DNA from: Flavipsychrobacter sp. | GTDB taxonomy: Bacteria; Bacteroidota; Bacteroidia; Chitinophagales; Chitinophagaceae | Assembly: GCA_031292525.1 (NCBI GenBank) | Contig: JARLGY010000038.1 | Coordinates: forward strand, 1-64,000 | Direction of reading: 5' to 3' | DNA: 64,000 nt | In this document: one piece after another, positions 1 to 55,162 of the stretch | Position numbering within the stretch: the first letter of the stretch is position 1 | How the letters are laid out: each line of letters starts with the position of its first letter | Notes under the pieces: model-generated | What the model saw: only the letters and a program-made list of their open reading frames with translations | Databases searched by the model: none | What the model was told of the DNA's origin: nothing | Position numbers and translations under genes: made by a program

Positions 1-2
1 CA

Positions 3-92
3 GTCAAAATGAGCCGCTGCCGTTGGTTAGGTGTTTATCAACATAAAATTGTGGATTCTAAAAGAAAAAAAAAGCAAAAAAGAAAATACTAA
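3..92 (+). CDS. possible 3' end of a gene cut by the window start
   Basis: Frame 3 is open from the window edge to a TAA at 90-92 and would encode a 29-residue tail that is very rich in Lys and Arg (ending KRKKKQKRKY). A basic tail is common at real protein ends, but the stretch is short, the A-rich DNA would give lysines in any case, and frame 2 is also open for some 40 bases. The upstream sequence is needed to decide. Confidence 0.2.
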   Translation, partial: VKMSRCRWLGVYQHKIVDSKRKKKQKRKY

Positions 93-135
93 TAATAGTA
101 ATAATGTCTTCAAAAAGACTCTTTGCAAATCTAAA

Positions 136-434
136 GGAACAGTGGATATCTCCTTTTTGCGACAATAAAATGCCATCGTAAATTTGTTGCGTTATTGTAA
201 ACCTATAAACCATTCCGCACGCGTATCGTTCAATAAAAACAAACAAAGAGTTTTAAGAGTTAAAGTATTTGTCCTGCTGAAATAGCAAAAAGTAAAATGC
301 CCGCTACAGACATTTATGGACATTCTGAGATGTTTTCATAAAATGCATGTTCACCACCACAAGGCACTTCAGTCTATTTTCACTCCTAAAATGTCTGTTT
401 CTACTTTTTAAATCACAACGGACATTTTGAGGAA
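136..434 (+). repeat. dispersed 299-bp repeat, copy A1
   Basis: This stretch aligns along its whole length with 6457-6755. It holds the family core (CACCACAAGGCACTTCAG, near 355-372) flanked by word pairs: GACATTT at 309-315 and GGACATT at 318-324 on the left, AAATGTC at 388-394 and GGACATTT at 420-427 on the right. One arm of the left hairpin has drifted relative to copy A2 (AAATGCC instead of AAATGTC). The remainder of the gene-free stretch 93-524 is A/T-rich with no recognisable gene. Confidence 0.85.
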
Positions 435-3150: not shown

Positions 3151-3972
3151 TTATGATTTTATAAAAGCCAAAAGGTCTTTATTAATGGTTGCAGCTTCTG
3201 TAGCAGGCATGCCATGCGGGAAGCCTGGATACGAGATCAGCTTACCGTTCTTCAGAAGCTTTATGGCCTTGGCTCCAGAAATTGCAAAGGGTACTATCTG
3301 GTCATCCTCGCCATGCAAAACCAGTACAGGTATATCCACACTTTTCAGGTCTTCAGTAAAGTCTGTTTCAGAGAAAGCCTTAATACCATCATAGTGTGCT
3401 TTTGCACTGCCCATCATTCCCTGGCGCCACCAATTGTCCCTGATGGCTTGTTTTATATTTGCTCCCGGGCGGTTATATCCGTAAAACGGTATGGTAAAAT
3501 CCTGGAAATATTGCGCCCTGTTTGTTCCGGTACCTTCACGTATTTCATCAAATATAGACATCGGCACACCATCTGGGTTGTTTTCAGTTTTTACCATCAG
3601 CGGTGTTACTGCGCTTATCAATACCGCTTTGGCTACGCGGCCCTTTCCGTATTTCGCAGCATAGTGTATAACCTCGCCGCCCCCTGTAGAGTGCCCAATG
3701 TGTATAGCATCTTTCAGGTCCAGCGCTGTGGTAAGCTCATTCACATCGGCAGCATATGTATCCATATCATGTCCACCCGATGTTTGGCTTGATCTTCCAT
3801 GCCCACGGCGATCGTGTGCTATCACTCTAAATCCTTGCGCAACAAAAAACATCATTTGTCCATCCCAGTCGTCGCTGGATAAAGGCCATCCATGATGAAA
3901 AACAATAGGTTGCCCGGTTCCCCAGTCCTTATAATAAATTTCAGTTCCGTCTTTTACTGTGATCTTGCTCAT
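3151..3972 (-). CDS. alpha/beta hydrolase, non-haem chloroperoxidase-like
   Basis: The 273-residue cytoplasmic protein has the full alpha/beta-hydrolase layout of the chloroperoxidase/esterase group. The oxyanion HGW is near residue 27, the nucleophile elbow GHSTGG has Ser95, the acid is Asp234 in GEDDQIVP and the base is His253 in FPHGMP. Length matches the family (about 270-280). Members hydrolyse esters and can perhalogenate in vitro; the natural substrate is not deducible. It converges with the HHRRH pair and is divergent from the Crp regulator 469 bases away. There is no signal peptide. Confidence 0.85.
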   Translation of the reverse strand: MSKITVKDGTEIYYKDWGTGQPIVFHHGWPLSSDDWDGQMMFFVAQGFRVIAHDRRGHGRSSQTSGGHDMDTYAADVNELTTALDLKDAIHIGHSTGGGEVIHYAAKYGKGRVAKAVLISAVTPLMVKTENNPDGVPMSIFDEIREGTGTNRAQYFQDFTIPFYGYNRPGANIKQAIRDNWWRQGMMGSAKAHYDGIKAFSETDFTEDLKSVDIPVLVLHGEDDQIVPFAISGAKAIKLLKNGKLISYPGFPHGMPATEAATINKDLLAFIKS

Positions 3973-4441
3973 GTGTTTTAGTTTAGATTATGGTGATTAA
4001 AAAAAAATTAGAGCTTCTTTGTTTTAAAAATTGCAGTACAGATAGTTTGCATTTTTTGTCAGCGCGGCGACAGCCACATACACTCATACACATTAACCCA
4101 TAGCTAAGCCGATTAGGCAAATAAAAATACCAAACAAAAATGATTTATACCCATTCACTTGAGAATTGAAGATTTATTAATATGCACTTGCCTGTGTTGT
4201 GCAATAGCGTCTAACCAAAGATTGCCTGGTATCGCGATATGCCGAAGGTTTACTTAAATCAGGACGGCAAGGTGTTACGGTATCGCCTACTCTTGTATTG
4301 GATATCTACTTCTCAACTGCGTAGATAGAACTTAAAGTTGCATTTTTCTTGCATATACTCAGAACGTCGCCGTAAATTTAACTTCTTTTACGGCGGATAT
4401 TTACTCATAATTAAAGTTACACCAACTGACACATTCACTAC
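3973..4441. other. divergent intergenic region
   Basis: This 469-base spacer separates the divergent hydrolase and Crp-type regulator genes. Apart from the inverted repeat at 4368-4395 I see no gene, family repeat or RNA motif. Regulation of both flanking genes from here is likely but not shown. Confidence 0.4.
4368..4395. promoter_or_regulatory. inverted repeat upstream of the Crp-type regulator
   Basis: A perfect 9-bp inverted repeat, CGCCGTAAA / TTTACGGCG, with a 10-base spacer lies 46 bases before the regulator start. There is no T-run after it, so it is not a standard terminator. It could be an operator for autoregulation or a 5'-UTR hairpin. Confidence 0.4.
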
Positions 4442-5032
4442 ATGGCACACGAAGATAAAATAGTAGAGTACGTAAGCAGGTATGTCAGTTTATCAGTTAG
4501 CGAAGTAGCGCAATTGAGTGTATCTTTCAAAGAAATAAAAGTTAAGAAAAGACAGTTTATCGTGCAACCTAACTTTGTTGCGCAACACCGCTATTATGTC
4601 TTGAACGGCGCTTTCAGGGCATATGTGGTGGATGATAACGGGCAAGACCATACTATAGCATTTGCTATAGACGACTGGTGGATAACGGACTACAATAGCT
4701 ACATTTTACAGCAACCCGCCACCATGTTTGTAGTAGCGCTGGAGGATAGTGCCGTACTACAAATGGACTATAAGAGCGAGCAGGAACTAAAAAGCAGCAA
4801 CCATAAATTTGAAACATTTTTCAGGATAAGGGCAGAGCGGACAGCAGCTTTTATGCAGCAAAGAATTATATCAAACCTTACACAAACCGCAGAAGAACGT
4901 TTTGAGCGCTTTGTAGAAAAATATCCTTTGATCGTTCAGCGGGTGCCTCAGTATGCGTTAGCATCGTACCTGGGTATGACCACTGAATTTTTATCGCGGA
5001 TAAGAAATAAACGTACAACCAAAAAAAGTTGA
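4442..5032 (+). CDS. Crp/Fnr-family transcriptional regulator
   Basis: The 196-residue protein has a cyclic-nucleotide-binding-like beta-roll (residues ~20-120) and a short C-terminal helix-turn-helix (ALASYLGMTTEFLSRIR). The HTH matches the Bacteroidota Crp subgroup, where LG(M/I)xxxxLSRIR recurs. It lacks the PRxSAR-type cAMP pocket, so the effector is unknown. The gene is followed after 101 bases by an AhpD-like gene on the same strand, which suggests a regulator-target pair responding to oxidative or electrophile stress. A palindrome just upstream may be its own operator. Confidence 0.85.
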   Translation: MAHEDKIVEYVSRYVSLSVSEVAQLSVSFKEIKVKKRQFIVQPNFVAQHRYYVLNGAFRAYVVDDNGQDHTIAFAIDDWWITDYNSYILQQPATMFVVALEDSAVLQMDYKSEQELKSSNHKFETFFRIRAERTAAFMQQRIISNLTQTAEERFERFVEKYPLIVQRVPQYALASYLGMTTEFLSRIRNKRTTKKS

Positions 5033-6294: not shown

Positions 6295-6456
6295 AGATAC
6301 CGTTGTTTTTTCTGAATGTGTCATTTTAATTCCCCGGAATTGTAATGACATTTTTTTTTGAATGCCTGAATTGAGAAAGGGTTTCTGGATATGTAGGTCG
6401 AAGCGGATCTTTCGGCCAGTGTGATATTTACATGGCTGTGCAACATCGCAAATCGT

Positions 6457-6755
6457 GGAACGGTGGATATCTCCTTTTTGCAACCATAAAAGGGAATCGT
6501 AAATTTGATGCGTTATTGTAAACCTGTAAACCATTCAGTACATATGTCGTTCAATAAAAAACAAACAAAAATTTTCAAGAATTAAGTACTTGTCCCGCTG
6601 AAATAGCGAAAAATAAAATGTCGATGCACAGACATTTACGGACATTCTGAGATATTTTCATAAAATGCATGTCCGCCACCACAAAGCATTTCAGTCTATT
6701 TTCAAGCCTAAAATGTCCATTTCTACTTTTTAAATTGCAACGGACATTTCTGGAA
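6457..6755 (+). repeat. dispersed 299-bp repeat, copy A2
   Basis: This is the best-preserved long copy of the family. The left hairpin is AAATGTC (6616-6622) with GACATTT (6631-6637), then an extra CGGACATT (6639-6646). The core GCCACCACAAAGCATTTCAG lies at 6675-6694. The right hairpin is AAATGTCC (6711-6718) with GGACATTT (6742-6749). The same word is thus used on both sides of the core. The left 160 bases are shared only with A1. The rest of 6295-7060 apart from copy A3 contains no recognisable gene. Confidence 0.85.
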
Positions 6756-6868
6756 TGAGTTAGCCGGAAAAATGAAAAGGTTTACCCTCGGCTCCTCAAT
6801 CCTGTCCTTCCCGAAATCCTTTAAATCGTGTTCAGAAAAATACAGCCATAACGCATCACATCGCAATC

Positions 6869-6990
6869 ACCTGTCCGATATCGGACACACCAGACAGTAA
6901 AAATAAAAAATATATTAGCCACCACAAGGCATTTTCAAGCCTCCCCAAACCCGCCGCTCCGCTTTTCAATTAAAAATCGGACAGGACAGC
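6869..6990 (+). repeat. dispersed structured repeat, short copy A3
   Basis: This copy has the same architecture as A2 but a different word. CTGTCCGA (6871-6878) pairs with TCGGACA (6881-6887), followed by GACAG (6893-6897). The core is GCCACCACAAGGCATTTTCA from 6918, and CGGACAGGACAG (6978-6989) closes the right side. It matches the complement of 22131-22250 more closely than it matches its neighbour A2. It lies directly in the leader region of the biotin carboxylase gene. Confidence 0.75.
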
Positions 6991-7060
6991 TCGCATCACA
7001 CTACTATCTACTCACTACTACTTGCTACTATCATCCAAAGACTTTCCTTAATTTAGCCCC

Positions 7061-22123: not shown

Positions 22124-22130
22124 CGGGTGG

Positions 22131-22250
22131 GGTGTCCTGTCTGGTTTTAAAAGCCAAACCGGACAGGGTGGCGCTGAAATGGTTTGTGGTGGCTGATATA
22201 TGGTTATTTTTAACTGTCTGGTCTGTCCGGTATCGGACAGGTTGTCTAGA
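22131..22250 (-). repeat. dispersed structured repeat, short copy A4
   Basis: This copy is reversed relative to A1-A3. On the plus strand TGTCCTGTC (22133-22141) and CCGGACAG (22159-22166) flank one side. The core complement CTGAAATGGTTTGTGGTGGC lies at 22174-22193, and CTGTC (22214), CTGTCCG (22223-22229) and CGGACAG (22234-22240) close the other side. The word family CTGTCCG equals that of A3, 15 kb away. The whole gap 22124-22761 holds A4, A5 and the transposase upstream hairpins, with no other gene seen. Confidence 0.8.
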
Positions 22251-22296
22251 GTGTGCGACGTATCATTGGATTGGCGTTTGTGTGGTTATAATGTGG

Positions 22297-22443
22297 AATG
22301 CCCGACGGATGGGAAAAAAGTATATCGGGCATTCGAGATATTGGAAATTTGCTGGAATGCTTTATGGTGGCTAGCATTATGGGTTTTGTGTTTTAAGTAA
22401 ATACCCGATTTGTGCCCGACAATGCCCGATGCCGGGCATTTTT
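22297..22443 (-). repeat. dispersed structured repeat, copy A5 with GCCCGA word
   Basis: The core complement CTGGAATGCTTTATGGTGGC ends at 22371. The words are all variants of AATGCCCGA: AATGCCCGAC (22297-22306) with TCGGGCATT (22325-22333) on one side, and CCCGA (22404), GCCCGAC (22414-22420), AATGCCCGAT (22421-22430) with GGGCATT (22434-22440) on the other. It has the architecture of A2 and A4 but a different word, and lies in tandem with A4. Confidence 0.82.
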
Positions 22444-22530: not shown

Positions 22531-23373
22531 CTGACTAGCCCACGCACTGGGGGTAGTCAGGTAATAAAGATACGTTACTGGGATCGGCGTTTCCAAATAA
22601 AGATATGCACCGTTCCACGATTTTCGTGGAACAGTGTGGTGTGGGTTTGTACGCATATTATTTGCGGGGCGTAGTCTTTTTCTGAGTACGCTGATAATGG
22701 TAAGCAAATCTTCAGATTTGCGTTTCTGTTTCTACTTTGTACTTTTCAGCAAACAATTTTAATGAGTACAGGTTACCAGATATATGACCAACATGGTATG
22801 TACTATCTGACATTTACGGTTGTGGACTGGGTAGATGTTTTTAGCAGAAAATGTTATAGGGATATTTTAATAGACAGCTTGCTGCATTGTATAAAGAACA
22901 AAGACCTTATGGTGTATAGCTATGTGATCATGACCAATCATATGCATATTATATGTCGAAGCGCTACAGGTAAATTATCTGATACTGTACGTGATTTTAA
23001 GAAATTCACTTCTTATAAAATCATTGATGCAATAAAGCATACCTCAGAAAGCAGGCGGAATTGGCTTTTGCATCGTTTTGAATGGGCTGCAAATCAAAAT
23101 GACCGTAATACCACATACCAGGTGTGGACACATGAAAATAATTCTATAGAGATAACTACAAACGAATTTTATTTGAGTAAAAGCAATTACATACATCTAA
23201 ATCCTGTAAGAGCGGGTTGGGTAGATAAGATAGAAGATTACGTGTACAGCAGCGCACATATAAATAGCTTGATTCCAATTACTGATTGGCAGTAGTAGTT
23301 GTTATCGGAAATCTGAAGATTTCCTTGCCGGGTTCGACGTAGTCAAAAGAAGACTACGTCGAGCAGGGTGCTG
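22531..23373 (+). mobile_element. REP-associated transposase element with flanking hairpins
   Basis: Hairpins surround the transposase gene. Upstream are CTGACTA/TAGTCAG (22531-22560), GTTCCACGA/TCGTGGAAC (22612-22632) and GCAAATCT/AGATTTGC (22704-22721). Downstream are GGAAATCT/AGATTTCC (23307-23324) and an 11-bp stem TCGACGTAGTC/GACTACGTCGA (23334-23362). GTAGTC boxes occur at 22553, 22666 and 23339, reminiscent of the GTAG of REP sequences. Exact element ends are not determined. Confidence 0.65.
22762..23295 (+). CDS. REP-associated tyrosine transposase (Y1/HUH, RAYT)
   Basis: The 177-residue protein has the Y1 transposase layout. The opening YYLTFTVVDWVDVF precedes the HUH metal motif NHMHII with His60/His62, and catalytic Tyr143 in NYIHLNPVRAGWV is followed by DYVYSS. 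Such enzymes nick single-stranded DNA at hairpin-containing REP sites and are usually domesticated single copies. It is intact and flanked by hairpins on both sides. The last 25 bases of the gene and the hairpins beyond it recur at 24346-24440. Confidence 0.9.
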   Translation: MSTGYQIYDQHGMYYLTFTVVDWVDVFSRKCYRDILIDSLLHCIKNKDLMVYSYVIMTNHMHIICRSATGKLSDTVRDFKKFTSYKIIDAIKHTSESRRNWLLHRFEWAANQNDRNTTYQVWTHENNSIEITTNEFYLSKSNYIHLNPVRAGWVDKIEDYVYSSAHINSLIPITDWQ

Positions 23374-24183: not shown

Positions 24184-24345
24184 AAAGGCTAAGGTTACTG
24201 ATCACTAAAGACTACTTTCCTACCGCAAAAGATTAACTTAGGTTCGTCGATTAGGCGGATTTCTCTCTTTGCCGAAGAAGCTTCGTTCGAAATGACCGGT
24301 GGGGGAGTGGGCAGAGAATGACAGTGATACGCGTATCAATAATCC

Positions 24346-24440
24346 GATTCCAATTACTGATTGGCAATAGTACTTGTTATCGGGAATCTGAAGATTCCCT
24401 GGCCGGGCCGACGTAGTCAAAAGAAGACTACGCCGAGCTG
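24346..24440 (+). mobile_element. non-autonomous copy of the RAYT element 3' end
   Basis: This stretch repeats 23271-23373: it begins within the last codons of the transposase (encoding IPITDWQ and stop) and continues through both downstream hairpins. The first hairpin has changed from GGAAATCT/AGATTTCC to GGGAATCT/AGATTCCC, a compensatory A-T to G-C swap that keeps pairing. No transposase body is present. A second dispersed-repeat-like stretch (TTCGAAATGAC and AGAATGACAG, 24286-24326) precedes it. Confidence 0.75.
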
Positions 24441-24446
24441 GGGTAA

Positions 24447-54917: not shown

Positions 54918-54950
54918 TTTGTCTTTTTATTTGCAACTTTTATACATTTG
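54918..54950 (+). promoter_or_regulatory. promoter of the cobalamin-riboswitch transcript
   Basis: A TTTG (54918-54921) and TACATTTG (54943-54950) are separated by 21 bases, matching the Bacteroidota consensus TTTG-N19-21-TAnnTTTG. Transcription should start within about 10 bases, just before the riboswitch. Confidence 0.65.
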
Positions 54951-54960
54951 CACCAACAAC

Positions 54961-55162
54961 GGTTTCCTATAATAAGAACGTGATAAACTTTCTTATTAAG
55001 GAATGAAAAGGGAACCAGGTGAAAATCCTGGACATTACCCGATGCTGTAAGCTTCAACAACAAAACCTTTTGTTACCTGTATTGCCACTGTTATACTTCG
55101 GTTGACGGGAAGGCGCAAAAGGCGAAGCGAGTCAGAAGACCTGCCATTGTTACAATTACTTA
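54961..55162 (+). promoter_or_regulatory. cobalamin (AdoCbl-type) riboswitch
   Basis: The core landmarks are all present in order: AAGGGAACCAGGTGAAAATC from ~55008, CTGGAC, CCCGATGCTGTAA near 55039, the B12-box region GCCACTG (55084), GGGAAGGCG, and AGTCAGAAGACCTGCC ending ~55145. These match the conserved parts of cobalamin riboswitches. It lies in the leader of a five-gene run ending in a TonB receptor, so it likely shuts the genes off when B12 is plentiful. Confidence 0.93.

Follow-up and report, generated by a model that had tools for sequence, protein, structure and literature searches.

The repeats of this Flavipsychrobacter chromosome appear to be dispersed, promoter-led, non-coding binding arrays for a chromosomal family of proteins resembling the phage small terminase subunit (TerS), a reading that we consider moderately probable on sequence grounds. 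The non-coding stretches, about fifty in number, are probably binding sites of this TerS-like family because genes of the family hold the same kind of array. The window, by which we mean the whole stretch of 64,000 nucleotides that was analysed (C5:1-64000 of the 4.44 Mb, 75-contig genome G000), contains five copies, A1 to A5. All five had been located by an initial annotation and each is covered by a match to our covariance model R1 (Table 1). Two of the stretches delimited there, 136-434 and 6457-6755, do contain an array but also take in a separate upstream module, made of a head and a leader. Of the two hairpins proposed at the same time, the left is not a single hairpin: it consists of an inverted pair with one or two further half-sites behind it.

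Table 1. Coordinates of the repeat units in the window and of the array-bearing TerS-like genes of the same genome
Feature	Position	Strand	Description
Unit 1, head (predicted promoter-like) and leader	136..212	+	GTGGATATC, TTTTTG and TAAATTTG-type boxes; TAAACC leader
A1, T-spelling array with one C-like left site	294..427	+	Model R1 match, 77.7 bits
Unit 2, head and leader	6454..6532	+	Sequence and head-motif matches
Unit 2, head boxes	6454-6471; 6477-6480; 6500-6507		CGTGGAACGGTGGATATC; TTTG; TAAATTTG
Unit 2, leader	6521-6532		AACCTGTAAACC
A2, T-spelling array	6615..6749	+	Model match, 98.2 bits
A2, left half-sites	about 6618-6644		
A2, core	6675-6694		
A2, right inverted pair	6714-6718; 6742-6746		TGTCC; GGACA; 28 apart
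A3, G-spelling array, after A2	6868..6991	+	Model match, 98.6 bits; core 6918-6937
A4, G-spelling array, second in its unit	22130..22243	-	Model match, 106.3 bits; core 22174-22193
A5, C-spelling array, first in its unit	22296..22442	-	Model match, 91.8 bits; core 22352-22371
A5-A4 unit, head (outer limits approximate)	22540..22640	-	CGTGGAACGGTGCATATC at 22602-22619
Gene G	L373:1047-2258	+	404 aa, G words
Gene C	L375:1830-2945	-	372 aa, C words
Gene C2	L378:1772-2626	-	284 aa from its ATG, C words; at weak model match

The repeats form a large family common to this genome and its sister genome (G001, 69% complete), whose occurrence in the rest of the bacterial family is patchy. When up to 3 mismatches are allowed, the core pattern matches 33 times in the 4.44 Mb genome and its backwards control 6 times. 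At E<=0.001, a covariance model built from an alignment of 20 copies matched the own genome 53 times and the sister genome 47 times, with no match in the remaining 57 of the 59 relatives searched; at the laxer E<=0.1 the own genome has 105, fragments included. At least one model match was found in 10 of 294 genomes of the family, the own and sister genomes among them. Eight of these 10 were searched again at E<=0.01 and yielded 1 to 20 matches each, and G305, from a distant genus, has 20 arrays. A pattern scan of genome contigs returned 61 matching stretches, including those of the sister genome. Four pattern scans of viral contigs returned 0, 7, 4 and 0 stretches, those read being free of arrays of this family, and a protein scan of the viral contigs had no match. 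In five viral contigs (L306-L309 and L311), ATCGGGCATAAATCGGGCA stands in a shared context, some 100 bases ahead of an apparent tRNA end; this is probably an attachment region outside this repeat family.

Read in the orientation of the core, the common array has first an inverted pair of half-sites (> <, 11-12 apart) and one or two more half-sites (<, 9-11 apart), continues through an A/T-rich linker, the core and about 39 bases, and ends with a right inverted pair (> <, 27-29 apart); the alternative order of right-type pair, core and left-type cluster is also present. The half-sites are words in three spellings, T (AATGTCCG), C (AATGCCCG) and G (CTGTCCGG), to which summed word match assigns 26, 16 and 44 of the 86 copies with a clear core, respectively. 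In clusters of two matches (n=22, spelling by eye) T or C stands first and G second in 20, the others being one T-T and one C-T, and a G array comes first in none of the 22. Within the window, A1 is mixed, one left site being AATGCCC and the remainder of T spelling, and the right outer site of A3 is degenerate (GCTCCG). A4 and A5 have orthologues at L133:3200-3313 and L133:3001-3147.

The distances between half-sites are narrowly held. Among the best 93 of 132 model matches, on which spacing and class agreement were scored, left direct half-sites lie 9-11 apart in 91/96 cases, left inverted half-sites 11-12 apart in 65/77 (20-21 in 9 more) and right inverted half-sites 27-29 apart in 78/85. 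The right site lies 38-40 from the core in 69/82 and 28-29 in 6. Inner gaps of the own genus fall at 54-55, 64-66, 73-75 or 83-85 in 71/81, with a best period of 10.25-10.5. The 32 copies from other genera do not show this phasing (R 0.30 at 10.5, 0.51 at 8) and the own-genus copies are not independent, and we therefore regard it as suggestive only.

The observation that a copy uses one word on both sides of its core holds for the family at large. After exclusion of 20 ties from the 93 scored copies, left and right fall in the same class in 70 of the 73 classifiable ones, compared with a mean of 28.7 and a maximum of 46 in 20,000 trials of shuffled pairing; the three that disagree are the mixed A1, one truncated copy and one decayed copy. 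Left and right words thus do not vary independently, and most copies have them. To speak of concerted drift of the two sites, however, claims too much. When nearest neighbours are assigned by the core alone, 64 of 86 copies share the word class of their neighbour (shuffled mean 32.7, maximum 52), and since the core without its words already predicts the class, the agreement is mostly inherited by descent of three subfamilies.

Upstream of the first array of a unit lies the head, CGTGGAAC-N12-CGTGGAAC-N-GTGCATATC-N2-CTTTTGG-N~20-TATCTTGC, often with AACCTGTAAACC next. Its boxes fit what we take to be the Bacteroidetes promoter consensus, and the head is thus predicted to be promoter-like. A 17-base head motif (at least 14 matches) lies upstream of 56 of 73 clusters, with no occurrence in the 73 downstream flanks, on the other strand or in shuffles, while the leader motif (at least 11 of 12) is found at 31 of 73 clusters and never in the same controls. 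The two stand 62-68 apart in 32 of 33 cases. Genome-wide there are 46 head matches (3 in the control), 45 of them with a model match on the same strand within 500 bases, counted in the E<=0.1 set where some matches are weak (E up to 0.06). By eye, several G305 arrays are preceded by similar heads, and a few G305 units have an ATG and short reading frame after the leader, a weak signal. Four G305 loci (L254, L255, L262 and L264) hold other repeats between head and array, including a block that ends in the boxA-like AGTTCTTTGA. A sequence of about 130 bases is common to four contig ends (window 1-140, and L120, L122 and L125 at the ends of C23, C24 and C26) and joins a unit at GGAAC of the unit's head, as if some longer repeat or mobile element had its end exactly in heads.

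Comparison with the sister genome, where 21 of 31 loci can be matched to a locus of the own genome along 1 kb or more, shows that the words are under constraint. We compared 19 orthologous element pairs from 15 locus pairs, marking a position as word if either sequence matched the word. Eight entries among the 21 locus pairs and the candidate L099/L128 that were considered gave no pair, being partial, of another array type or of unclear orthology (L095/L153, L102/L127, L112/L146, L114/L139, L123/L148, L126/L151, L159/L157 and L099/L128). Changes affect 39/753 word positions (5.2%), 227/1505 spacer positions (15.1%) and 56/336 core positions (16.7%). The spacer rate exceeds the word rate in 19 of 19 pairs and the core rate does so in 17, whereas the spacer rate exceeds the core rate in 6 of 19. 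The core is therefore constant in the sense of being family-wide and recognisable between old copies, but between orthologues it changes as fast as the spacers. Head conservation between orthologous loci is good by eye.

These results support the suggestion that the two word clusters are paired recognition sites which have to match. Overall the words are about three times better conserved than spacers, with the difference in the same direction in every pair, and the genes that probably encode the recognising proteins carry arrays of this kind, each in its own spelling. Because the words are constrained at orthologous loci, the copies are unlikely to be inert relics. The right stems are able to pair, and the 272 stem cells compared contain no compensatory double change; of the 7 changes that fell in cells paired in the own genome, 5 disrupted the pairing and 2 preserved it. 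The words look more like double-stranded protein sites than like hairpins.

The aligned locus pairs contain no clean empty site of the kind expected for a MITE of a DDE transposon and no target duplication was found, and mobility of the units is thus inferred from their dispersal. The flanks of L092 and L117 are not present in the 69% complete sister genome. In one species, some units have inserted genes next to them (HD-domain, DHFR-like, GIY-YIG and others, named by eye), which we regard as ordinary turnover. The unit of L133 is adjoined, at positions 3312-4190 and 4224-4520, by a tandem array of about ten repeats, each of roughly 89 bases, and by a GIY-YIG-like open reading frame; in L143 another such frame separates the T array from the G array (1741-2088; both names by eye). 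In L089, an inverted repeat (GTGTCATTGCGAGGTACGAAGCAACCTTA ... TAAGGCTGCTTCGTACCTCGCAGTGACAC, about 3170-3260) between C and G arrays is partly deleted in the sister genome, together with the G array.

The link to a protein comes from arrays within genes. The palindrome TGYCCGN4CGGRCA has 38 sites in the genome (control: 1 per strand), 35 of which coincide by coordinates with model matches in non-coding arrays. One of the other three lies in an unrelated open reading frame and two lie in the paralogous genes G and C, whose products are 50% identical. A tblastn search with these two products over the collected array loci found a third paralogue, gene C2, as well as relatives in L297 (G305) and in L244 and L230 (genome G102), and gave no other collected locus, so ordinary units do not carry a TerS-like gene. 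No gene of T spelling is among those found by the palindrome and this search.

In all three own genes the array is in frame and lies in a linker that follows the conserved N-terminal domain. The order in gene C is right-type pair (28), core-like stretch and > < < (11, 10), and in gene C2 it is right-type pair (28), core (21/28 matches) and three < (11, 10). In gene G the right-type pair is incomplete, its GGACAGGACA end standing ahead of a core-like stretch and > < < (11, 10). Left and right parts are thus both present in genes C and C2, and gene G has the left part. In 3000 codon shuffles per gene, the left part was reached 4, 1 and 2 times and the right pair 41, 27 and 31 times (G, C and C2, respectively), and the two together never. 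The core match was reached in 7, 83 and 0 of 1000 shuffles, the core match of gene C being weak. It was the palindrome that led to two of the genes, G and C, whose arrays are thus ascertained; the figures therefore characterise the arrays and not their discovery, and the paralogy of the array-bearing genes is the independent fact.

The genes also share upstream elements with the units. The leader just before the start codon matches in 12/12 positions in gene C (AACCTGTAAACC), 10/12 in gene G and 9/12 in gene C2, a match of at least 10 occurring in 10 of 1460 shuffles. A head stands upstream of gene C2 (15/18), and genes G and C are without a recognisable one (10/18 and 8/18). The array is common to all three genes, and no single gene has array, leader and head all strong. 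Two of the 4 array loci of G102 include a TerS-like gene, which in L230 stands some 0.5 kb upstream of the array and in L244 some 0.3 kb downstream of a weak array match; the TerS-like gene of L297 has no array. The units are probably internally deleted, non-autonomous relatives of the genes, with which they share head, leader and array, much as MITE-like derivatives have modules in common with longer copies that bear a gene.

The N-terminal ~145 aa of the three proteins match PHROG 4151, "DNA binding protein" (3e-26, 1.7e-29 and 9.6e-20), with weaker matches to terminase small subunit PHROGs. Pfam Terminase_5 is above cut-off for two of the proteins; the NCBIfam TerS model stays far under its cut-off (25 of 120 bits). 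Identity to phage TerS is 33-36% over 38% of the query. Relatives occur in 38 phage records, mainly of Bacteroides and Porphyromonas phages among the 20 listed, and in the two phage regions that we read the relative is annotated as TerS or terminase small subunit and directly precedes the large subunit (TerL). In the chromosomal proteins this domain is followed by a variable linker and by C-terminal parts that match no family at the thresholds used. Other matches are to HTH_Tnp_1_2 (above cut-off for one protein) and further helix-turn-helix (HTH) models. A search of solved structures gave no match, and PADLOC gave a short HTH match to mad1 only.

We propose that an array consists of two clusters of one half-site of 7-8 bases around the core, and that a TerS-like homo-oligomer would contact all half-sites at once, across both clusters. 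The two clusters would share one spelling because a single homo-oligomeric protein would contact every half-site, and such an oligomer would also account for the narrow distances, the mixture of inverted and direct half-sites and the cognate arrays in the genes. The T, C and G spellings would match different paralogues. The genes would each carry their own pac-like site, with the repeats as their non-coding satellites, and bound arrays may serve as packaging starts, as chromosome marks or in regulation. Such binding may mark the chromosome, whether as pac-like initiation or through a regulatory nucleoprotein complex, and a packaging role is far less certain than the link between protein and array. 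A fuller version, in which solo TerS-like genes, each with its own spelling and in-frame array, seeded about 50 selected satellite arrays that act as host-encoded pac-like starts (for a gene transfer agent or hijacked helper-phage capsids) or mark the chromosome addressably in three orthogonal dialects, is tentative and on the whole unlikely.

Alternatively, the arrays could be operators of host regulators, for which the TerS-like fold was just a source of an HTH domain and which build regulatory or chromosome-organising complexes with no link to packaging; we judge this somewhat unlikely. Oligomeric regulators typically have tandem half-sites spaced about 10 apart, and the conservation of words and heads at orthologous loci, two thirds of the sister loci being shared over at least 1 kb, would be expected of operators. 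However, units show no preferred orientation towards the next gene (37 same, 34 opposite, n=71), and housekeeping genes of mixed kinds adjoin them (judged by the top 25 of 124 families, from a scan of 130 of 131 flanking open reading frames), with no recombinase among these 25 commonest families. The palindrome, moreover, is nearly absent outside arrays. The nearest open reading frames after heads are in the same orientation in 42 cases and opposite in 28 (n=70). Regulation of the neighbouring genes was rejected as a role, gene orientation being random.

The repeats could also be REP/REPIN-like elements mobilised by a Y1 (RAYT) transposase, which would fit the initial idea of guides read by an HUH enzyme, but this is very unlikely. 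Y1 genes were searched in 10 genomes. In the own genome two of the three Y1 genes have a unit within 1 kb, and in the sister genome 1 of 3 has one within 0.5 kb; none of the 7 Y1 matches of G305, by contrast, is on a contig with any of its 20 arrays, and we did not adopt this explanation because the proximity is partial. According to He et al. (PMC6006769), REPs occur in frame in tnpA-REP genes, and Bacteroidetes subclass 2.6 has atypical structures. The alignment of 20 copies, however, shows no constant GTAG/GTGG/CGTC tetranucleotide at the stem foot, and the stems lack compensation and keep narrow spacing. The window has a RAYT-like Y1 transposase gene of its own (22762-23295), flanked by a different palindrome pair; its palindromic repeat (GACGTAGTC..GACTACGTC, at 22663-22722, 23306-23368 and 24334-24442) is unrelated to the words, as are the palindromes of the neighbour copies, which counts against the guide idea. 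That the repeats are a non-coding RNA gene in many copies, with alternative pairing partners common to its hairpins as had also been suggested, is highly improbable: the promoter-like heads and pairable right stems would suit it, but the repeats belong to no Rfam family, their stems change without compensation and mostly by breaking pairs, and both the left and right inverted pairs hold narrow distances. The sole Rfam match of the window at the gathering threshold is a cobalamin riboswitch (54943-55162; RF00174, 97.6 bits).

If the repeats are binding arrays of the TerS-like family, a repeat family of no previous explanation is tied to a candidate protein, and the joint change of spelling in a DNA-binding protein and dozens of dispersed sites becomes testable. 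Three natural spellings, dozens of sites and cognate paralogues could reveal what it is in DNA that a TerS-type protein recognises. Should packaging begin at the arrays, the chromosome would be tagged for transfer.

Several known systems share parts of this arrangement. SaPI-type islands are satellites with their own small terminase for their own pac site; unlike them, the units here are without genes, and no capsid or island genes were seen. The pac site of P22 lies inside the TerS gene, according to one account (PMC9611059), and as in P22 a TerS-type gene here has a putative recognition site inside its own coding sequence. However, P22 pac is one asymmetric site of 22 bp, whereas the array here has 5-6 half-sites in three spellings and dozens of non-coding chromosomal copies, and no large terminase was seen beside the genes, whose neighbours were read as open reading frames only. 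As a phage-like pair of TerS and pac, the putative site is in 3 genes of G000 and beside 2 of G102, and not in L297 of G305. The same source reports site binding by phage small terminases to be weak and sequence-independent in most in vitro tests (PMC9611059). Generalized transduction by P22 uses chromosomal pseudo-pac sites, 11 in strain 14028S, which are chance resemblances (PMC11226127). These too are chromosomal sites resembling a pac site, but the ~45 head-bearing units here are a repeat family under constraint.

The REP/RAYT system offers the other parallel. As outlined in PMC6006769, it combines a gene family, dispersed short non-coding palindromes, cognate spellings for each paralogue and in-frame copies, and here too a gene family goes with dispersed non-coding relatives, cognate spellings and in-frame copies. 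In contrast, the gene here is TerS-like and not a Y1 transposase, the half-sites are spaced as double-stranded sites, and the unit includes a promoter-like head. A literature search, with subscription papers mostly outside its reach, found no description of this repeat family. Taken singly, the pieces have precedents in these systems; their combination is new to us.
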